Positions 6,878-44,674 of a stretch of DNA of 64,000 nucleotides are shown here, piece by piece. A model generated the notes under the pieces. That model made no database searches, was not told the origin of the DNA, and was given only the letters and a program-made list of their open reading frames with translations. Made by a program: the position numbers and the translations under genes. This stretch comes from a virus: positions 124,001 to 188,000 of IMG/VR virus record IMGVR_UViG_3300031344_000002; one strand, 5' to 3'. Each line of letters opens with the position of its first letter. The first letter of the stretch is position 1.

Positions 6878-7007
6878 TATAATGGTTCGCAGCTCATATA
6901 AAGGCAGGGTTTAAAAGGCACTTACCTGTCCAGTTACAAAAATTAACCAAGTGCCTGAAATGTTGGCAAACAACAACACCCCTGCTTTTATATGAGCTGT
7001 TGTTATA
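6878..7007 (+). repeat. Palindromic cassette-boundary-like element A
   Basis: Bounded by TATAATGG and TTGTTATA. AGCTCATATAAAGGCAGGG (6891-6909) pairs with 6979-6998 (CCCCTGC then TTTTATATGAGCT), and inside it GGCACTT (6917) pairs with AAGTGCC (6949). It sits between one ORF stop and the next ATG, as do elements at 7221 and 7542. This resembles an integron attC site or a structured RNA, but the classic GTTRRRY core is not exactly met. Confidence 0.45.
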
Positions 7008-7026
7008 GCCAGTTAATTTTAATAAA

Positions 7027-7215
7027 ATGGAAAAACACAACAAAAATGATGAAACACGGCAACTTGGATACTATTGGGTTGAATGGGAAGATAAAGGCAA
7101 TTGGTTAATATTTTGGTTTAATCAAGGATATTGGCAATGTGTTGCAATGGGGGAAATAGAATTGAATGATGACTATATTTTATCAGTTGATGAAACCAAA
7201 TTGATTCACCATTAA
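7027..7215 (+). CDS. Hypothetical Trp-rich small protein
   Basis: 62 residues with seven Trp (for example YYWVEWEDKGNWLIFWFNQG), suggesting a compact beta fold. It starts 20 nt after element A, and its stop is 6 nt before element C, the layout of a promoterless gene cassette. No family recognised. Confidence 0.55.
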   Translation: MEKHNKNDETRQLGYYWVEWEDKGNWLIFWFNQGYWQCVAMGEIELNDDYILSVDETKLIHH

Positions 7216-7220
7216 TTGGC

Positions 7221-7330
7221 TATAATGAAAAGCATATGGTTAGTAAGCCATACGCAAAATTATCAAATTAATATTAACCAACAACATTTATTTGAAAGTA
7301 ATGAAATAATTGCTTATATTTGTTGTTATA
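7221..7330 (+). repeat. Cassette-boundary-like element C
   Basis: Starts TATAATGA and ends TTGTTATA, the same ends as elements A and B, and also lies between a stop (7215) and an ATG (7345). The internal palindrome is weaker: AGCATATGG and CCATACGC form a short imperfect hairpin. Confidence 0.3.
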
Positions 7331-7344
7331 AAATCGTAAAAATT

Positions 7345-7530
7345 ATGGAACAGAAAAAGTTAGTAGAACAGTTGATTAAGGCAGCAAATGAAATTTATAA
7401 AAATAGAAAACCAAGTGCTAATTATATTCAACTAAGTGAAGAATTCATATAACAACAGGCAGATGAACGAGAAATTTCATTTGATGACATGGTAGAAATT
7501 ATCAAAAAAGAACTGATGTCTAATGAATAA
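7345..7530 (+). pseudogene. Small antitoxin-like ORF with in-frame TAA
   Basis: From the ATG at 7345 the frame reads 35 residues to TAA at 7450-7452, then continues open as QQADEREISFDDMVEIIKK to a second TAA at 7528. Coding-like sequence on both sides (SEEFI, stop, QQADEREIS) suggests one 61-residue protein in which a CAA Gln codon became TAA. Short helical proteins of this look are often annotated near toxin-antitoxin genes, but I cannot assign a family. A nonsense mutation, read-through or sequencing error are all possible. Confidence 0.5.
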
Positions 7531-7541
7531 TTTTTATGTTT

Positions 7542-7593
7542 TATAACGGTGGCAAATATATTGTCGTTTTAATGCAATATATTTGTTGTTATA
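7542..7593 (+). repeat. Palindromic cassette-boundary-like element B
   Basis: Starts TATAACGG and ends TTGTTATA. CAAATATATTG (7553-7563) and CAATATATTTG (7575-7585) form a perfect 11-bp stem with an 11-nt loop. It lies 12 nt after a stop and 41 nt before the next ATG. A weaker relative (TATAAC to GTTATA) is at 7887-7911, after the next gene. Confidence 0.45.
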
Positions 7594-7633
7594 AGTATGT
7601 ATTATTTTTGTTTTACCTTATAAAAACTAAATT

Positions 7634-7879
7634 ATGAAAAGAACATTTTTAAAAGTTACAAAGAAGAAATTAAAAGAAATGACTTGCACTTTTTATGGTG
7701 CTGGAAAACAACTACAAAATAATGATAAGGTTTGTAGTGGATTTACAATAAACTATGCAAATTTGAATGGAACACCATCATCAGAATATAATCCAAATGA
7801 AATAACCTTATCATTAAAAATGTTCGTTGAAAAAGATGGTGTATTGTATGAATTATATAAAAATTCAAAACAAAAATAA
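7634..7879 (+). CDS. Hypothetical small protein
   Basis: 81 residues with a basic N-terminus (MKRTFLKVTKKKLKEM), two Cys, and a beta-like C-terminal half. It lies between element B and a weak fourth palindrome. No family recognised. Confidence 0.55.
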   Translation: MKRTFLKVTKKKLKEMTCTFYGAGKQLQNNDKVCSGFTINYANLNGTPSSEYNPNEITLSLKMFVEKDGVLYELYKNSKQK

Positions 7880-7996
7880 TATTACTTATAACTATTATAT
7901 ATAAAGTTATATACTTAACTATTTGATTGTGAACAATAAATATGATAATATTTTAAAGATTTGTTTTAAATGATTAAAAAACATAAAAACTAATAT

Positions 7997-8344
7997 ATGA
8001 ATAAAGATATATTATCGATTGATTATGATGATGATAATAAAGATATTACCGCTTTTAATAAATATCTTGAAACTGACCTAATTCGAAAGAAAAATCAAAC
8101 TGCTTTTGAAATTGAAAAAATGGGTAATCTTTATCTAAAAGAAATTGATAAAAAAAGAAAACAAAAGGAACATAAAAAAACAAAACTAATTCCATATATC
8201 ATAAAACATTCAAAAGGTATGTATGATATAGAGGAATTAAATTCATATAGTTTTGAAGATATTCGAGACATTCATAATAAAATAAAAAAAGAAAGTCTTT
8301 CATCAATTTCAAAATTTTTTCATTTTATTTTTAATGTTAATTAA
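7997..8344 (+). CDS. Hypothetical basic helical protein
   Basis: 115 residues, rich in Lys, Asp and Ile. An acidic N-terminus (SIDYDDDNKD) is followed by basic helices (KKRKQKEHKKTK). It precedes the exonuclease gene by 41 nt and probably shares its transcript. Unknown. Confidence 0.6.
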   Translation: MNKDILSIDYDDDNKDITAFNKYLETDLIRKKNQTAFEIEKMGNLYLKEIDKKRKQKEHKKTKLIPYIIKHSKGMYDIEELNSYSFEDIRDIHNKIKKESLSSISKFFHFIFNVN

Positions 8345-8385
8345 ATATTAACCACATTTATATTGTAATAAATAAAAACATTAAT

Positions 8386-9213
8386 ATGAGTCAATTATTT
8401 GATACTGTATTTAATCCAAGTAGCATTTATGAACCAAATATGCGTTTCATTAATGTAAAATCTGTTCTTATTTATCCTACATTGGAAGAACTTAAAAAAA
8501 ATAACAAACCTTTGTTTGATAGTTGGAGTAATTTGTCAAAAACCAAGTATGGCTTTGATATGAATGTTACTCATAGTATTGCTGGAACAATGACAGATGA
8601 AACTCCAATATGTGCACAAAAAATATATGAGGACAATGCACCAAACTATCCTGAATATAGTAGAATTATTGCTATAACATATGCAAAGGTATTTGTAGAA
8701 GATAATAAGCCGAAAAGTAATATAATGAATTTTTTTGGGGAAGAAGAACATCGCATACTTGAACAATTTATGGAAGTGTTATATCAATTATCAAGTGATG
8801 GCGTTCAGTCAACCCCAAAATATTTTCCGATGCTTTGTGGACATAATATTATAAATCATGATATTCCTTTTTTAATTAAAAGATTTATTATTAATAAAAA
8901 TAAATTTGAAATAAAAAAGGGATTGCCATTAATTTTAAAAAAGTGTTTAAGTGCAAAACCTTGGGAATCTGATATTGTTGATACTGTTAATGTTTGGAAA
9001 TTTAATGGTTATGATTATATATCATTAATGCTTATTGCTGATTTTATGGGTCTTAAAAAAACAGTAGATTTATTACCAAATAATGAATTATCGAAATATT
9101 ATTGGAATAATGTCAAAGAAAAACCAGAAGAAACACTTAAATTTATATTATTACAATCAGCAACACAAACAAATCTTGTCATTCACCTCATGAATGAATT
9201 GAGACGATTATAA
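8386..9213 (+). CDS. PolB-type 3'-5' exonuclease-like protein
   Basis: 275 residues. The centre reads LCGHNIINHDIPFLIKRFII, the Exo II block (NxxxxD) of DEDDy exonucleases related to the proofreading domain of family B DNA polymerases (DNA_pol_B_exo2 type). Downstream 'DIVDTVNVWKFNGYDYISLMLIADFMGL' matches the region before the Exo III block. Such stand-alone domains would trim 3' DNA ends in replication or repair. The N-terminal Exo I DxE is less clear, so catalytic competence is uncertain. Last + strand gene before a convergent junction. Confidence 0.6.
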   Translation: MSQLFDTVFNPSSIYEPNMRFINVKSVLIYPTLEELKKNNKPLFDSWSNLSKTKYGFDMNVTHSIAGTMTDETPICAQKIYEDNAPNYPEYSRIIAITYAKVFVEDNKPKSNIMNFFGEEEHRILEQFMEVLYQLSSDGVQSTPKYFPMLCGHNIINHDIPFLIKRFIINKNKFEIKKGLPLILKKCLSAKPWESDIVDTVNVWKFNGYDYISLMLIADFMGLKKTVDLLPNNELSKYYWNNVKEKPEETLKFILLQSATQTNLVIHLMNELRRL

Positions 9214-9398: not shown

Positions 9399-9698
9399 CT
9401 AATTAATCCATTTTAATACATCAATAAATTTTCCTTCAATATATGGTGCATCATAATAACTATCATATTCTTCTTCATCCATATAAGCACATTTTATTTT
9501 ATATACGCCATTGAGTAAATAATTAAACATATCAAACATAGTATTAAAGAAAATATATATTTTATTTTCATGATTGAAAATAAAAATAAAACTTTCTTTC
9601 CAATCATCATTATCTAATGAATGATTAATTATAACGCCTAGTGTTTTACTACCATCAGAGTATTGTTCTTCATGTGCTGATTTTAATTTTGTTTTCAT
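9399..9698 (-). CDS. Hypothetical protein
   Basis: 99 residues with a central Phe/Ile/Tyr-rich strand region (SFIFIFNHENKIYIFF) and an acidic Tyr-rich C-terminal part. Its start overlaps the end of the upstream transglycosylase gene by 29 nt, so the two are probably coupled. Unknown function; last gene of the - strand block. Confidence 0.6.
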   Translation of the reverse strand: MKTKLKSAHEEQYSDGSKTLGVIINHSLDNDDWKESFIFIFNHENKIYIFFNTMFDMFNYLLNGVYKIKCAYMDEEEYDSYYDAPYIEGKFIDVLKWIN

Positions 9699-10347
9699 TC
9701 TTTTTTATATTTGTGTAAAATTTATTATTTGAGTGTCTTCTTAAAATATAATCAATATAATCAATTGTTTCTTGAATTGGTGGAACACCACGAAATTTAA
9801 TTACTTTTTTAATACCTGCATTATAACATGCAAGTGTTAATTTCCATGAATATTTATCACTATAACCTTTTGTACGCCAATAATCATGCAAATCTTTTAA
9901 CATTGTTAATCCAATATATATATTTTTTCGATTATAATCCAAATTAAGTGCATTAATATTAAGGATTATAGAATATGCATCTTCTGTTTCTGGCATAAGT
10001 TGAAAAAAACCTTTTGCACCTACAGGTGAAATAATAGTATCAATAAATTTTGATTCTTGTGATATTAATCTAAAAACAGTTCTTATTGGTAATTTAAATT
10101 CAATTGATTTATTATAAATATATTCAATATAATTAGTATCAACATATTTTGGAATTTTAATTTCTGCTTGAAACTCAATTGTATCAATCATTTTACATAG
10201 TTTTTCCAATCTCATTTGTTGTTTGATTTGATTAAATTTTGTTTCATCATTAGCTCTATTATAAATCCCAAACATACTAATACTACCAATATTTGTGGCA
10301 TTCATACAAGTAAAAAGAATTATAATTATAAACAATATTTTTTTCAT
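9670..10347 (-). CDS. Lytic transglycosylase (SLT domain), secreted
   Basis: 225 residues. The N-terminus (MKKILFIIIILFTCMNA) is a signal peptide. The SLT fold spans about residues 75-200: catalytic Glu in ISQESKF, then PVGAKGFFQLMPET, then LACYNAG, the three standard SLT motifs. The enzyme cleaves the MurNAc-GlcNAc bond with 1,6-anhydro ring formation. The signal peptide suggests export to the periplasm, so it may help envelope passage, unlike the leaderless GH25 lysozyme at 4281. Confidence 0.85.
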   Translation of the reverse strand: MKKILFIIIILFTCMNATNIGSISMFGIYNRANDETKFNQIKQQMRLEKLCKMIDTIEFQAEIKIPKYVDTNYIEYIYNKSIEFKLPIRTVFRLISQESKFIDTIISPVGAKGFFQLMPETEDAYSIILNINALNLDYNRKNIYIGLTMLKDLHDYWRTKGYSDKYSWKLTLACYNAGIKKVIKFRGVPPIQETIDYIDYILRRHSNNKFYTNIKKNENKIKIST

Positions 10348-29336: not shown

Positions 29337-29744
29337 ATGGAAAAAGAAATAAAGATTAACGTACCAGATGGTTTTGAAATTGATAAAGATAATTCTACTT
29401 TTGAATTAATTAAATTCAAACCTGTTGTAAATAAGGAAGATAAGAATAAATCTATGTCAGATTTCTTATTTCAGATGTTTAATAATGCTGTATGCAAAAT
29501 TACTGGTGAAAAAGAATTAATATATTATAAATTAGATGGATATAATCCAAATTCTGATAATAATAAGTGGTTATTTCAACAGGATTGGAAAAGTGGTAGA
29601 CTTTGGATAAGATATACTTTAATTTGGCAAATTTTCGAAGAAAGATTTGGTCTTAACTACGAGCAAATCAGAGATTTCATTCAAGATTGGGTGGAAACCA
29701 ACCTAAATTGGAAGGGTTTAACACCCCAACGATTCTTGCCATAG
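29337..29744 (+). CDS. Conserved hypothetical whose 3' end contains the first CRISPR repeat (copy 1)
   Basis: 135 residues. The N-terminus EIKINVPDGFEIDKDNSTFE is a pattern seen in small phage proteins. The body has WLFQQDWKSGRLWIRYTLIW and ends ERFGLNYEQIRDFIQDW followed by VETNLNWKGLTP. The last 12 residues are encoded by CRISPR repeat 1 of array 1, and the frame closes inside spacer 1. A paralogue with the same arrangement is at 30748; the two are nearly identical over the first 28 residues and the last 30. Function unknown. If the upstream coding region also serves as CRISPR leader, conservation of its 3' end would be explained. Confidence 0.75.
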   Translation: MEKEIKINVPDGFEIDKDNSTFELIKFKPVVNKEDKNKSMSDFLFQMFNNAVCKITGEKELIYYKLDGYNPNSDNNKWLFQQDWKSGRLWIRYTLIWQIFEERFGLNYEQIRDFIQDWVETNLNWKGLTPQRFLP

Positions 29745-30055
29745 ACTATTTTTTTGGTGGAAACCAACCTAAATTGGAAGGGTTTAACACCTGTAATTGG
29801 TGTTGAGATAAGTGCCAAAATGGTGGAAACCAACCTAAATTGGAAGGGTTTAACACCTGTAAATGCAATCTTTCTAAAGGAAGTAAAGGTGGAAACCAAC
29901 CTAAATTGGAAGGGTTTAACACCTAAACATCCTTATAGTCATCTTGTGTTCGGGGTGGAAACCAACCTAAATTGGAAGGGTTTAACACCACATAGACATT
30001 GACATAATCTGCGTTATACGGTGGAAACCAACCTAAATTGGAAGGGTTTAACATA
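29690..30055 (+). CRISPR. CRISPR array 1: six 36-nt repeats, five 30-nt spacers
   Basis: Repeats start at 29690, 29756, 29822, 29888, 29954 and 30020, a constant 66-nt period. The repeat begins GGTGGAAACCAACC, continues TAAATTGGAAGG and ends GTTTAACACC. The first five copies are identical; the last has TA instead of CC at its 3' end, the degenerate terminal repeat expected at the leader-distal end, so the leader side is the 5' (gene) side. The ends GGTGgAAAC/GTTTaaCACC and the internal CCAA/TTGG can pair, giving a structured crRNA handle. All five spacers are exactly 30 nt and unrelated to each other. Repeat 36 with spacer 30 occurs in types II, V and VI-B and some III systems; subtype cannot be assigned. 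No cas gene is nearby. Confidence 0.93.
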
Positions 30056-30111
30056 TTGATTGTAAAAATAATAACAATAATATCAACAACTGAAACTAAA
30101 TTTGAAGAATA

Positions 30112-30747: not shown

Positions 30748-31161
30748 ATGGAAAATAAAGAAATAAAGATTAACGTACCTGATGGGTTTGAAATTGATAA
30801 AGATAATTCTACTTTTGAATTAATTAAATTCAAACCTGTTGTAAATAAAGAAGATAATAAATCCAAAGAAATGTCGGATTTATTATTCTCAATGTTTAAT
30901 AACACTGTGTGCAAAATTACTGGTGAAAAAGAAATAACTTATTATAAATTAAATGGATATAATCCAAATTCTGATGATAATGAGTGGTTATTTCAACAGG
31001 ATTGGAAAAACGGTAGATTATGGGTAAAATATTCACTTATTTGGAAGGTTTTTGAAGAAAGATTTGGTCTTAACTACGACCAAATCAGAGATTTCATTCA
31101 AGATTGGGTGGAAACCAACCTAAATTGGAAGGGTTTAACACCAATTCAAGGCGGATATTGA
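30748..31161 (+). CDS. Conserved hypothetical whose 3' end contains the first CRISPR repeat (copy 2)
   Basis: 137 residues, a clear paralogue of the protein at 29337: same EIKINVPDGFEIDKDNSTFE start, FKPVVNKED, ITYYKLNGYNPNSDDN, WLFQQDWKNGRLWVKYSLIW, and the same FGLNYDQIRDFIQDW end. Again the last residues VETNLNWKGLTP come from a CRISPR repeat and the stop lies in spacer 1. In DNA, the last 54 bases before the repeat differ at only one position from copy 1, while the middle is more diverged. Confidence 0.75.
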   Translation: MENKEIKINVPDGFEIDKDNSTFELIKFKPVVNKEDNKSKEMSDLLFSMFNNTVCKITGEKEITYYKLNGYNPNSDDNEWLFQQDWKNGRLWVKYSLIWKVFEERFGLNYDQIRDFIQDWVETNLNWKGLTPIQGGY

Positions 31162-31340
31162 CGACAGCAAAAGGTGGAAACCAACCTAAATTGGAAGGGT
31201 TTAACACCGTTGCCAGTAATGCCCTTGCGGAACTATATGGTGGAAACCAACCTAAATTGGAAGGGTTTAACACCAGAAAAGGATAACTGGTTTTCCTATT
31301 GTTTGGTGGAAACCAACCTAAATTGGAAGGGTTTAACACC
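31107..31340 (+). CRISPR. CRISPR array 2: four 36-nt repeats, three 30-nt spacers
   Basis: Repeats start at 31107, 31173, 31239 and 31305, identical to the array 1 consensus and all four perfect. Spacers (31143, 31209 and 31275, each 30 nt) differ from each other and from array 1. By hand count the eight spacers of both arrays average about 35% G+C, higher than the surrounding genes, as expected for foreign-derived sequence. The array begins in the 3' end of the paralogous gene at 30748, just as array 1 begins in its twin. Confidence 0.93.
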
Positions 31341-31367
31341 AGATAAATAAATTAATAAGAAAAAATT

Positions 31368-41130: not shown

Positions 41131-41880
41131 ATGTATAAAGGTGTTATTTATTGTGCAATCTCTCCATCAAATAAAAAATATTATGGACTTACTTTAAATT
41201 TTTCAAGAAGAAAAAATGGTCATAAAAGATGTGCTGAATTTAAAAAATGTCGTTTTTATATTGCAATTAAAAAATATGGTTTTGATAATTTTATTTGGAA
41301 TATAATAGAAACACATGAAAATGAAAGTAAAGGGAATCTTCAAAATATTTTAAATGAAAGAGAAAAATATTGGATTGAAAAAGATAAAACATATTATTCT
41401 GAATTTGGATATAATATGACTCGTGGAGGTAATGGTGGTGATGCATTTACAAACAAATCTAATGAAGACAAGGAAAGAATACTTTTATGTAAAAGTAATA
41501 GATTTAGTGGTAAGAATAATCCAATGTATGGAAAAAAGGTTTATGATATTTGGTTAGAAAAATATGGAAAAGAAATTGCTGATGAAAAATTAATGGAAAG
41601 AAAAAAAAGAACAAGTAATTCGCTTAAAGGAAAAAGTCATCCTTGTTCAAATGAAACAAAAGAAAAAATAAGAAAAAAACTTTTAGGACATAAAATTTCG
41701 GAAATTTGTAGACAAAAACGTTTAGGCAAAAAAAATGCTGCTGGAAAAAGAAATGATGAATTTAAATTAAAAATGAGTATATCTCATAAGGGATTACCAT
41801 CACCAAGAAAGGGATGCCATCTTACAATTGAAACAAAAAGAAAAATTAGTGAATCAAAATTAAATAAAAAGATTAATTAG
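41131..41880 (+). CDS. GIY-YIG homing endonuclease (segD-like, NUMOD3 type)
   Basis: 249 residues. N-terminal GIY-YIG domain: GVIYCAISPSNKKYYGLT, catalytic-side Arg in FSRRKNGH, and the Glu in ILNEREKYWIEK. The C-terminal half has NUMOD3-like repeats: GKNNPMYGKK, NSLKGKSHPCS, then K-x-x-I-S-x-S-x-K repeats. Free-standing Seg-type endonuclease that copies itself into related phages. No intron is evident around it. Confidence 0.85.
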   Translation: MYKGVIYCAISPSNKKYYGLTLNFSRRKNGHKRCAEFKKCRFYIAIKKYGFDNFIWNIIETHENESKGNLQNILNEREKYWIEKDKTYYSEFGYNMTRGGNGGDAFTNKSNEDKERILLCKSNRFSGKNNPMYGKKVYDIWLEKYGKEIADEKLMERKKRTSNSLKGKSHPCSNETKEKIRKKLLGHKISEICRQKRLGKKNAAGKRNDEFKLKMSISHKGLPSPRKGCHLTIETKRKISESKLNKKIN

Positions 41881-43050: not shown

Positions 43051-43992
43051 ATGAAAAAAAATAACTTAGTTCCAAATAAAGGTTTATCTCTTTCACAAGC
43101 ACAGTCAATTTCTAATCTTTGTAATCAAAGAGCAAATGAAATTGCTAATCAATTATCTGCTGTAAATAATTACAGTAAATCTGTAATGGTTGAAGGTAAA
43201 TCACATGAAACAGTTAAAGGTGTTAAACTTCCTGACGATGTTATTTCATTATTACAAGAAAAAGCAAAACTTCACTCTTGTCAGGCGTTTCTCATGGAAA
43301 ACATGAAAGCAAAAGAAAATTTGCTTAGTGTTGCAAAAAAAATTGCATATACTATACCTGATGGTTTAAAAAGTATTGCTCCTGAAAGACCTAAATTCGT
43401 TACTCCTATAATTTTATCACAAGTTAATGAAGAATTTGGTTGGGAACAACTTACTGCAGCCGAATATAATGAATATCTGGAAGCTGAAGCATATGCTTCA
43501 CACCTTGGTGAATTTATTCATAAAGGTTCAATTCTTGCAGGTTTACGTAATGAAATAAATAGTATTCCTTCAGTTGAATGGATGGTTATTAAAGGCGATG
43601 GAACTAAAACTCCTGTTGAAATAAAGGTGCATCACACTCCTGAACAACTTCTTACCATTCACGAAAAACTTGCTACAATACATCGTGCCTTCGAACAAAA
43701 TGTAAATTATTATAAAGCAAAAGTTAAAAATCTTACTACTGAAGAAAATGCACGTATTGCTAAACTTAATGCTGATGCTCAAAATGATGCAGAAAAAATT
43801 AACAATGACCTGCAACTTACTTACGATACTGCAATGAAAAAAGTGAGCGAAGCAATTAATACTGCTAAAGCTGAATTTGAAAAAGACCGTCAGGTAAAAA
43901 TTAAAGAAATTGCCAGTATGCGTATTGAAATCGATTTAAGATTTCAAGAAACAATTGATTTATTTTTAAATCAACTTCCAAAACAAGAATAA
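43051..43992 (+). CDS. Hypothetical coiled-coil protein
   Basis: 313 residues. Helical throughout, with a less charged centre (about 120-205) and a long C-terminal coiled coil (about 205-300, DAQNDAEKINNDLQLTYDTA). Higher G+C and codon use slightly different from neighbours, suggesting high expression. It has its own host-type promoter and precedes the structured RNA region. Unknown function. Confidence 0.7.
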   Translation: MKKNNLVPNKGLSLSQAQSISNLCNQRANEIANQLSAVNNYSKSVMVEGKSHETVKGVKLPDDVISLLQEKAKLHSCQAFLMENMKAKENLLSVAKKIAYTIPDGLKSIAPERPKFVTPIILSQVNEEFGWEQLTAAEYNEYLEAEAYASHLGEFIHKGSILAGLRNEINSIPSVEWMVIKGDGTKTPVEIKVHHTPEQLLTIHEKLATIHRAFEQNVNYYKAKVKNLTTEENARIAKLNADAQNDAEKINNDLQLTYDTAMKKVSEAINTAKAEFEKDRQVKIKEIASMRIEIDLRFQETIDLFLNQLPKQE

Positions 43993-44046
43993 AAATTTAA
44001 GGTGAAAGACAGATAGAGCACAAGCCGAGTTTGTTTTTCTTTGTAT

Positions 44047-44323
44047 CATATGATGAGTTCTTTAATATATATGAAAAATTAACAACGTTAATTAGAAAAT
44101 GTCCCTTCGGGGGCGTTTCCGACATCTGAAAGTAAAATCGCTTCCTTTGCAAAAAAACAAGTTTTCTATGGGATTTTTACAAAACCACCATGACTACTAA
44201 CTAAGTTACCTTCGGGATAATTAGAGTAGGAAAACGACTTCGCTTTTGTCCTTGCCATTGTGCAATGGAAGGTCTGTAACTTTGGCGTTAACATTGATTT
44301 TATCTATATAAATTCATCATATG
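44047..44323 (+). ncRNA. Structured non-coding RNA candidate (about 280 nt)
   Basis: A 367-nt gap (43993-44359) without ORF. CATATGATGA (44047-44056) pairs perfectly with TCATCATATG (44314-44323), closing the whole region. Inside: ATGTC/GACAT (44099-44125) around CCTTCGGGGG, a UUCG-type loop; AAGTTAC/GTAACTT (44203-44282) closing a multibranch with CCTTCGGG; GGAAAACGA/GCTTTTGTCC (44229-44251); and CCTTGCCATTG/CAATGGAAGG (44250-44272). Nested, GC-rich in an AT-rich genome, with several UUCG loops. Not a tRNA, tmRNA or RNase P RNA by the conserved motifs I know. Confidence 0.65.
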
Positions 44324-44359
44324 GTAACTTATTTTTAAATATTAAATAATAATAATATT

Positions 44360-44674
44360 ATGGGTATTAAACACGTAAGTTGGATGCCGGGATTTAATGG
44401 TGAACCCCCCAAACCAATGTATTATACAATTGGAATTACTGAAGAAATGTCTAATGCTGATTTAATGTGGCAAATTAGATGTTGTAAAGAACCGGGAAAA
44501 GTAGAATTAATAGCAGCATTTAAAGAAAGTAAAGACGCAGTATCTTATATGACATCTGTTATATTTAAAAATAATAAAAAAGATAATGAAACAATATTAG
44601 GCGGAAGTATTGAAGGATGTTCTTATTTTATTGAATATAATTCTTCAACCGAATATATGGTATTAACAACTTAG
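44360..44674 (+). CDS. Hypothetical protein
   Basis: 104 residues; 'SWMPGFNGEPPKPMYYTIGIT' start, beta-rich. First gene after the RNA candidate. Unknown. Confidence 0.6.
   Translation: MGIKHVSWMPGFNGEPPKPMYYTIGITEEMSNADLMWQIRCCKEPGKVELIAAFKESKDAVSYMTSVIFKNNKKDNETILGGSIEGCSYFIEYNSSTEYMVLTT

Follow-up and report, generated by a model that had tools for sequence, protein, structure and literature searches.

A noncoding RNA of about 335 nt with an elaborate, conserved fold is encoded behind the gene of a 313-residue protein in a viral DNA stretch of 64,000 nt (hereafter the window; positions 124,001 to 188,000 of IMG/VR record IMGVR_UViG_3300031344_000002). The window belongs to a 218-kb virus record and has a G+C content of 26%. 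RNA and gene are reciprocally linked across phages, and the RNA includes a strand with a fixed length of 33 nt and a period of 6 nt. We are virtually certain that this is a real functional RNA. We further propose, with a probability of about 0.6, that this operon-end RNA and the upstream protein of about 300 residues form one phage ribonucleoprotein, whose binding and function we infer. This is the simplest account of the reciprocal linkage, of the one clear copy in each genome searched whole, and of so elaborate an RNA at the operon end.

A conserved fold linked to one gene

The RNA lies in a 367-nt gap (43993-44359) between the open reading frame (ORF) of the 313-residue protein (43051-43992) and an ORF of 104 codons (44360-44674). 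An initial annotation, made from the letters of the window, had placed a structured RNA of about 280 nt here; the structure is real, but the RNA is longer, about 335 nt (44000-44336, + strand). The perfect 10-bp helix proposed to close it (44047-44056 with 44314-44323) is present exactly and makes up the central part of a more extended long-range helix, P2 (Table 1). At least four further helices with UUCG-type loops had also been described. Such a loop is found in only two hairpins (44106-44109 and 44211-44214), and a third CUUCG (44238-44242) lies within the unpaired tract 1 (Table 1) instead of a hairpin loop. Overlooked at that stage were the obligate upstream gene, helix P0, and the fixed 33-nt tract with its 6-nt period. 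The minimum free energy (MFE) of the + strand is -83.5 kcal/mol, compared with -65.8 +/- 5.2 for dinucleotide shuffles (z of -3.4, beating 100 of 100), and the - strand has a z of -2.5 in the same test.

To compare loci, we took 80 from a wider protein search and 80 from a second search centred on distant members and scanned them with an RNA profile, which places the RNA beside the gene nearly everywhere in both sets. The 287 loci fetched overall, from large phages, yield 148 distinct RNA sequences, the safer number since many loci overlap the same contig; contigs reach 434 kb. With the 313-residue protein as the query, three further loci have the RNA in the downstream gap; in a fourth (L005), a repeat-protein gene has been inserted and the RNA follows it, 1.5 kb farther downstream. 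This insertion is an ORF of 468 codons made of YTYDERGN-type repeats (7014-8420 of that locus), of which a shorter copy occurs at 9403-10053. Searching phage records with the RNA by blastn returned only short AT-rich chance matches; degenerate short DNA patterns returned mostly chance loci, and more specific patterns re-found known loci only.

The fold is conserved by compensatory substitution. We used an R-scape-like null, in which substitutions are re-dealt along a FastTree phylogeny of the 79-sequence alignment (our own script, not R-scape itself). Twenty-two column pairs reach E<0.05, and 21 of them belong to the RNAalifold consensus helices P0, H1, P2, P3, and P4; the remaining one is the non-nested pair 13-50, whose column 13 also takes part in P0. 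Among the weaker signals (E>0.06) are two non-pairing column pairs located in the hairpin that separates P3 from P4, a region in which the alignment combines hairpins of two types. In a separate MAFFT alignment of 58 sequences, 89.5% of the cells of the 44 counted pairs are paired, and 41 of these pairs changed on both sides. The covariation score is 0.700, against 0.288 +/- 0.009 in shuffled and at most 0.242 in slid alignments, and pairing falls to 38-53% when partners are slid by 1-3 columns. The slid control is somewhat favourable, since the structure was derived from an overlapping sequence set, but the size of the gap makes this bias immaterial. The initial annotation had named loss of the pairings in homologous gaps of related phages as the result that would refute it; in dozens of phages, such gaps instead retain them by compensatory substitution. 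Substitutions in helices give G-U far more often than A-C (268 versus 47), which identifies the + strand RNA as the selected molecule.

Individual elements differ in their constancy. In P0, columns 13-332 are paired in 99% of the sequences (AU, UA, or GC), columns 14-331 are G-C in 79 of 79, and columns 15-330 are G.A, again in 79 of 79. P3 holds one U.U opposition in the window, and the content of the variable domain differs among the aligned phages. A pseudoknot between the H1 loop (AGCACAAG) and CUUURUGC is backed by some pairs only and has mismatches in most sequences; we do not claim it.

The linkage holds in both directions. With the protein as the starting point, the RNA follows the gene in the same orientation in 171 of 172 loci (97 distinct gene 3' ends), and in the sole exception (L327) the sequence ends 53 nt past the gene. 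With the RNA as the starting point, a search with an independent DNA pattern added 115 loci. Every one of them matches the RNA profile, and the gene is present in 113; the remaining two are truncated 223 and 23 nt upstream. This second test is the narrower one, because the pattern samples one RNA subgroup. Every locus with enough sequence to reveal both members has the complete pair. Other neighbouring gene families reach at most 26 of 81 loci, and each genome searched over its whole record has one clear RNA copy, so the RNA is not a general 3' element. The linkage even survives genes inserted between the two members (L005, L278, L302, L371, and L293), which span up to 1.4 kb; after small-gene insertions, the RNA restarts directly behind the last stop codon in most cases examined. 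Since the RNA begins 0-25 nt past a stop codon and a U-run closes it, gene and RNA are probably cotranscribed. Retention of the pair across about 50% protein divergence, with all other neighbours changing, points to a central function in phages, one overlooked because it resides in an RNA.

Table 1. Features of the gene-RNA pair, in window positions.
Feature	Position	Strand	Basis and remarks
Partner protein gene, 313 aa	43051..43992	+	No known family; RNA downstream in 171/172 loci
Whole structured RNA, P0 to end of U-run	44000..44336	+	nhmmer and covariation, 79-80 non-redundant homologues
P0, 5' strand (AGGU)	44000..44003	+	Pairs with 44326-44329; contains the invariant G.A
H1 hairpin	44004..44039	+	Stem 44004-44013 with 44030-44039; apical mini-stem GC-ACAA-GC at 44018-44025; alignment helices 2-4
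P2, 5' strand, long-range	44045..44059	+	15/15 pairs with compensatory changes; contains 44047-44056
Variable domain	44077..44118	+	Local hairpins 44077-44093 and 44097-44118 (UUCG loop); sequence, MFE fold, alignment
P3 core helix, 5' strand	44141..44149	+	Pairs with 44263-44271; compensatory changes in 7/7 counted pairs
P4	44194..44229	+	44194-44198 with 44225-44229 and 44201-44204 with 44221-44224; internal loop GUUA/AUAA; UUCG cap; alignment helices 7 and 8, window's own pairing read from sequence
Tract 1, U-rich, 6-nt pattern (GACUUCGCUUUUGUCCUUGCCAUUG)	44236..44260	+	
P3, 3' strand	44263..44271	+	
Tract 2, linker from P3 to CUAUA, exactly 33 nt, 6-nt period	44271..44303	+	
P2, 3' strand	44311..44325	+	P2 about 13-15 bp in total
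P0, 3' strand (AACU), and U-run	44326..44336	+	Probable 3' end of the RNA

Some of the surroundings are worth recording. In about 30 of the 80 loci from the wider protein search, the pair sits in or adjoins a tRNA array of up to 25 genes (e.g., L267, L274, L301, and L322). In the window, an ORF for a GIY-YIG/NUMOD3 homing endonuclease (41131-41880) lies about 2 kb upstream of the pair.

Six-nucleotide tracts and distant relatives

The distance between GGUC, at the end of P3, and CUAUA, at the start of the P2 return strand, is exactly 33 nt in 71 of the 73 sequences measured. This linker, tract 2, matches itself at a lag of 6 nt with a frequency of 0.616, versus 0.342 +/- 0.009 in shuffled tracts, and has the consensus UGNYNU. 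A shorter tract with the same pattern, tract 1, precedes the 3' strand of P3. The complementarity of tract 2 to the rest of the window is at the shuffled level. Tract 1 scores 36.6 against a site near window position 338, where the maximum over 60 shuffles is 35.8; this is probably chance.

Tract 2 has one stop-free frame, which would read as an alternating hydrophobic peptide (VFDFDFDF...), raising the question of a hidden coding region. We regard this as extremely improbable. The linker between the tracts is 10, 11, or 12 nt long, and the tracts therefore lack a common reading frame. The ratio of TTT to TTC is 201:5 in the tract, compared with 402:271 in the neighbouring gene, third-position C is strongly enriched for Gly and Asp, and no conserved start codon is seen by eye.

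The repeated hexamers also bring to mind DNA iterons. The locus would then serve replication or packaging, with the protein as initiator and the RNA as a primer or R-loop former, in the manner of ARRPOF or ColE1. One clear copy per genome, a dedicated adjoining protein, and short direct repeats are all features that such a locus would have. Yet the hexamers are degenerate, a GC-skew switch is absent at 44 kb, and the excess of G-U over A-C places selection on the + strand RNA, which leaves little room for this reading.

The same architecture recurs far from the original set. Using a distant member as the tblastn query, we found relatives in two gut phages, bajarodcaudo virus 1 (PQ006092) and MT836666, with about 27% identity over half of the protein. 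The relationship is confirmed by hmmsearch (E values of 1.5e-19 and 4e-13) and by hhalign (probability 98.4 for PQ006092). Their RNAs have no significant nhmmer match (best E of 0.11 for MT836666 and 0.75 for PQ006092). Unconstrained folding of the sequence behind the gut-phage genes gives, in order, H1, P2 (13-18 bp), one or more local hairpins, P3, and a P3-P2 linker of 33 nt, whose boundary was read by eye in both. Under a position-specific matrix from the aquatic phages, the gut linkers are the best of about 14,900 sites (17.8 versus 3.6 for the next, and 10.4 versus 8.0). With a purely periodic matrix, the MT836666 linker ranks only fourth, and the top periodic site is tract 1 just upstream. 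Gene order suggests that bajarodcaudo virus 1 is a crAss-like phage. In PQ006092 (20068-24155), the annotation splits the major capsid protein into four pieces, which are separated by intron-type endonucleases.

These relatives bear on the main rival explanation, which draws its force from the apparent cotranscription of RNA and gene: a cis-acting element of the 3' untranslated region (UTR). The RNA would then set the stability or translation of its own operon mRNA, possibly while bound by the protein (autoregulation), and would form no separate particle. Its start immediately behind the operon's final stop codon and its terminal U-run, kept even when genes are inserted before it, are what one would expect of such an element. 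However, known 3' UTR elements are far simpler than this RNA, the linkage persists across the intervening genes, and both the fixed 33-nt hexamer tract and the full architecture persist at about 27% protein identity. We thus consider a purely cis-acting role unlikely, although it deserves to be taken seriously.

The partner protein and the proposed particle

An AlphaFold model based on an alignment of 57 homologues (pLDDT of 86, pTM of 0.78) predicts small beta parts beside long helices, notably a helix that spans residues 197-250 (54 residues). H204, H211, R212, E215, N219, Y220, K222, and K224 are among the residues invariant on the long helix, which makes them a plausible candidate for a binding face. 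The model matches no PDB fold below an E value of 0.07; its one good structural match, BFVD entry A0A6J5N6M1 (TM score of 0.92), is itself an uncharacterised phage protein. Searches of the protein against Pfam, PHROGs, NCBIfam, and PADLOC returned coiled-coil noise only.

An obligate RNA-protein pair in phages could also be a toxin-antitoxin or abortive-infection module, in which the RNA restrains the protein. Type III systems and AbiF-RCd22 likewise place RNA and protein side by side and are phage associated, and AbiF is a phage-encoded RNA/protein pair of the same logic (PMC12373285). In type III systems, however, a repeat-array RNA precedes the toxin; here, a single non-repetitive RNA, ten times the size of a ToxI unit, follows a protein without toxin homology. 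The PADLOC, Pfam, and NCBIfam matches are no better than noise, with no homology to ToxN, AbiQ, or Abi_2, and near-universal retention in the lineage is unlike the turnover typical of toxin-antitoxin systems. A module of this kind is therefore very unlikely.

We can now outline how the ribonucleoprotein might work. P0, H1, P2, P3, and P4 would act as a scaffold that keeps two U-rich strands, one of them exactly 33 nt long, single-stranded. The protein, probably as an oligomer, could bind these strands in a 6-nt register, with one UGNYNU per subunit, and the helices would give it specificity for this RNA. The RNA may be processed from the mRNA and act as a diffusible particle. Some points weigh against this proposal. 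The RNA almost always ends the transcript that encodes the protein, and a cis element would give the same linkage; the 6-nt register need not equal one protein subunit per 6 nt; and the protein has no recognisable RNA-binding domain. As to its role, the one hint comes from the tRNA arrays in some phages, which suggests a part in the takeover of host RNA or translation. It is possible, though we advance it tentatively, that the pair represents a new class of viral ribonucleoprotein, shared by aquatic huge phages and gut phages, in which the scaffold offers a 33-nt strand as a ruler and an oligomer with a new fold reads it in 6-nt steps. The pair is small enough for expression and for solution by cryo-electron microscopy.

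Comparison with known RNA-protein systems

Neither the RNA nor the protein has a family in Rfam, Pfam, PHROGs, or NCBIfam. The description of the RNA as unclassified in the initial annotation thus stands, with no Rfam family at the gathering score in the window and none at the RNA itself in 11 homologous loci, the families tested including ROOL, OLE, RNase P RNA, tmRNA, 6S RNA, and group I introns; at relaxed E values, Rfam 15 gives chance-level matches only, far below gathering, in the window and homologues. The annotation had also denied hallmarks of tRNA, tmRNA, and RNase P RNA, and ARAGORN finds neither of the first two in the window. To our knowledge, an obligate protein partner is rare among phage noncoding RNAs, and we know of no other that joins a covarying scaffold with a fixed-length strand of 6-nt period.

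The omega-RNAs of IscB and TnpB, tracrRNAs, and retron RNAs resemble the present case in that a structured RNA is fixed beside one protein gene. Omega-RNA systems and retrons differ, as the partner protein here matches no nuclease or reverse transcriptase domain; for retrons, this concerns the adjacent conserved partner, as no whole-genome search for reverse transcriptases was made. As for a tracrRNA anti-repeat, a CRISPR-like repeat of the window scores 17.0 against the RNA, where the shuffled mean is 20.5, and the RNA has no complementarity to these repeats. This repeat, 36 nt long (GGTGGAAACCAACCTAAATTGGAAGGGTTTAACACC), forms two short arrays with 30-nt spacers (29690-30060 and 31107-31345). 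A duplicated ORF (starts at 29338 and 30749) runs in frame into the first repeat of each array, which forms its 3' end and reads VETNLNWKGLT; a zinc-finger-like ORF lies between the arrays.

Among phage RNAs, GOLLD and ROOL are the nearest in setting, being large structured RNAs of phages and prophages that are often near tRNA islands (PMC12286853). The two assemble into cages made of RNA alone, and no protein partner is known for them (PMC12286853); they differ from this RNA in sequence and fold. GOLLD (RF02032) has no match in the window at the gathering score, and one locus (L300) carries it at 8534-8948, separate from our RNA (about 6934-7229). A group I intron (7280-7467) adjoins the RNA in this locus, so that GOLLD and the intron lie within 2 kb of the pair, amid a tRNA array.

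The OLE RNA offers a precedent for the argument from linkage, since the OLE-OapA complex was recognised through the neighbouring positions of the RNA gene and a protein gene (PMC11332333). It is about 600 nt long, occurs in Gram-positive bacteria, and has a membrane protein, OapA, as its partner, whereas our RNA is found in phages, lies 3' of its gene, and has no Rfam OLE match. The likeness is in the configuration: OLE was a large structured RNA recognised alongside an adjacent gene, of then undescribed function, that encodes its binding protein (PMC11332333), and here too the RNA gene is fixed, in both directions of the linkage, beside the gene of a predicted binding protein.
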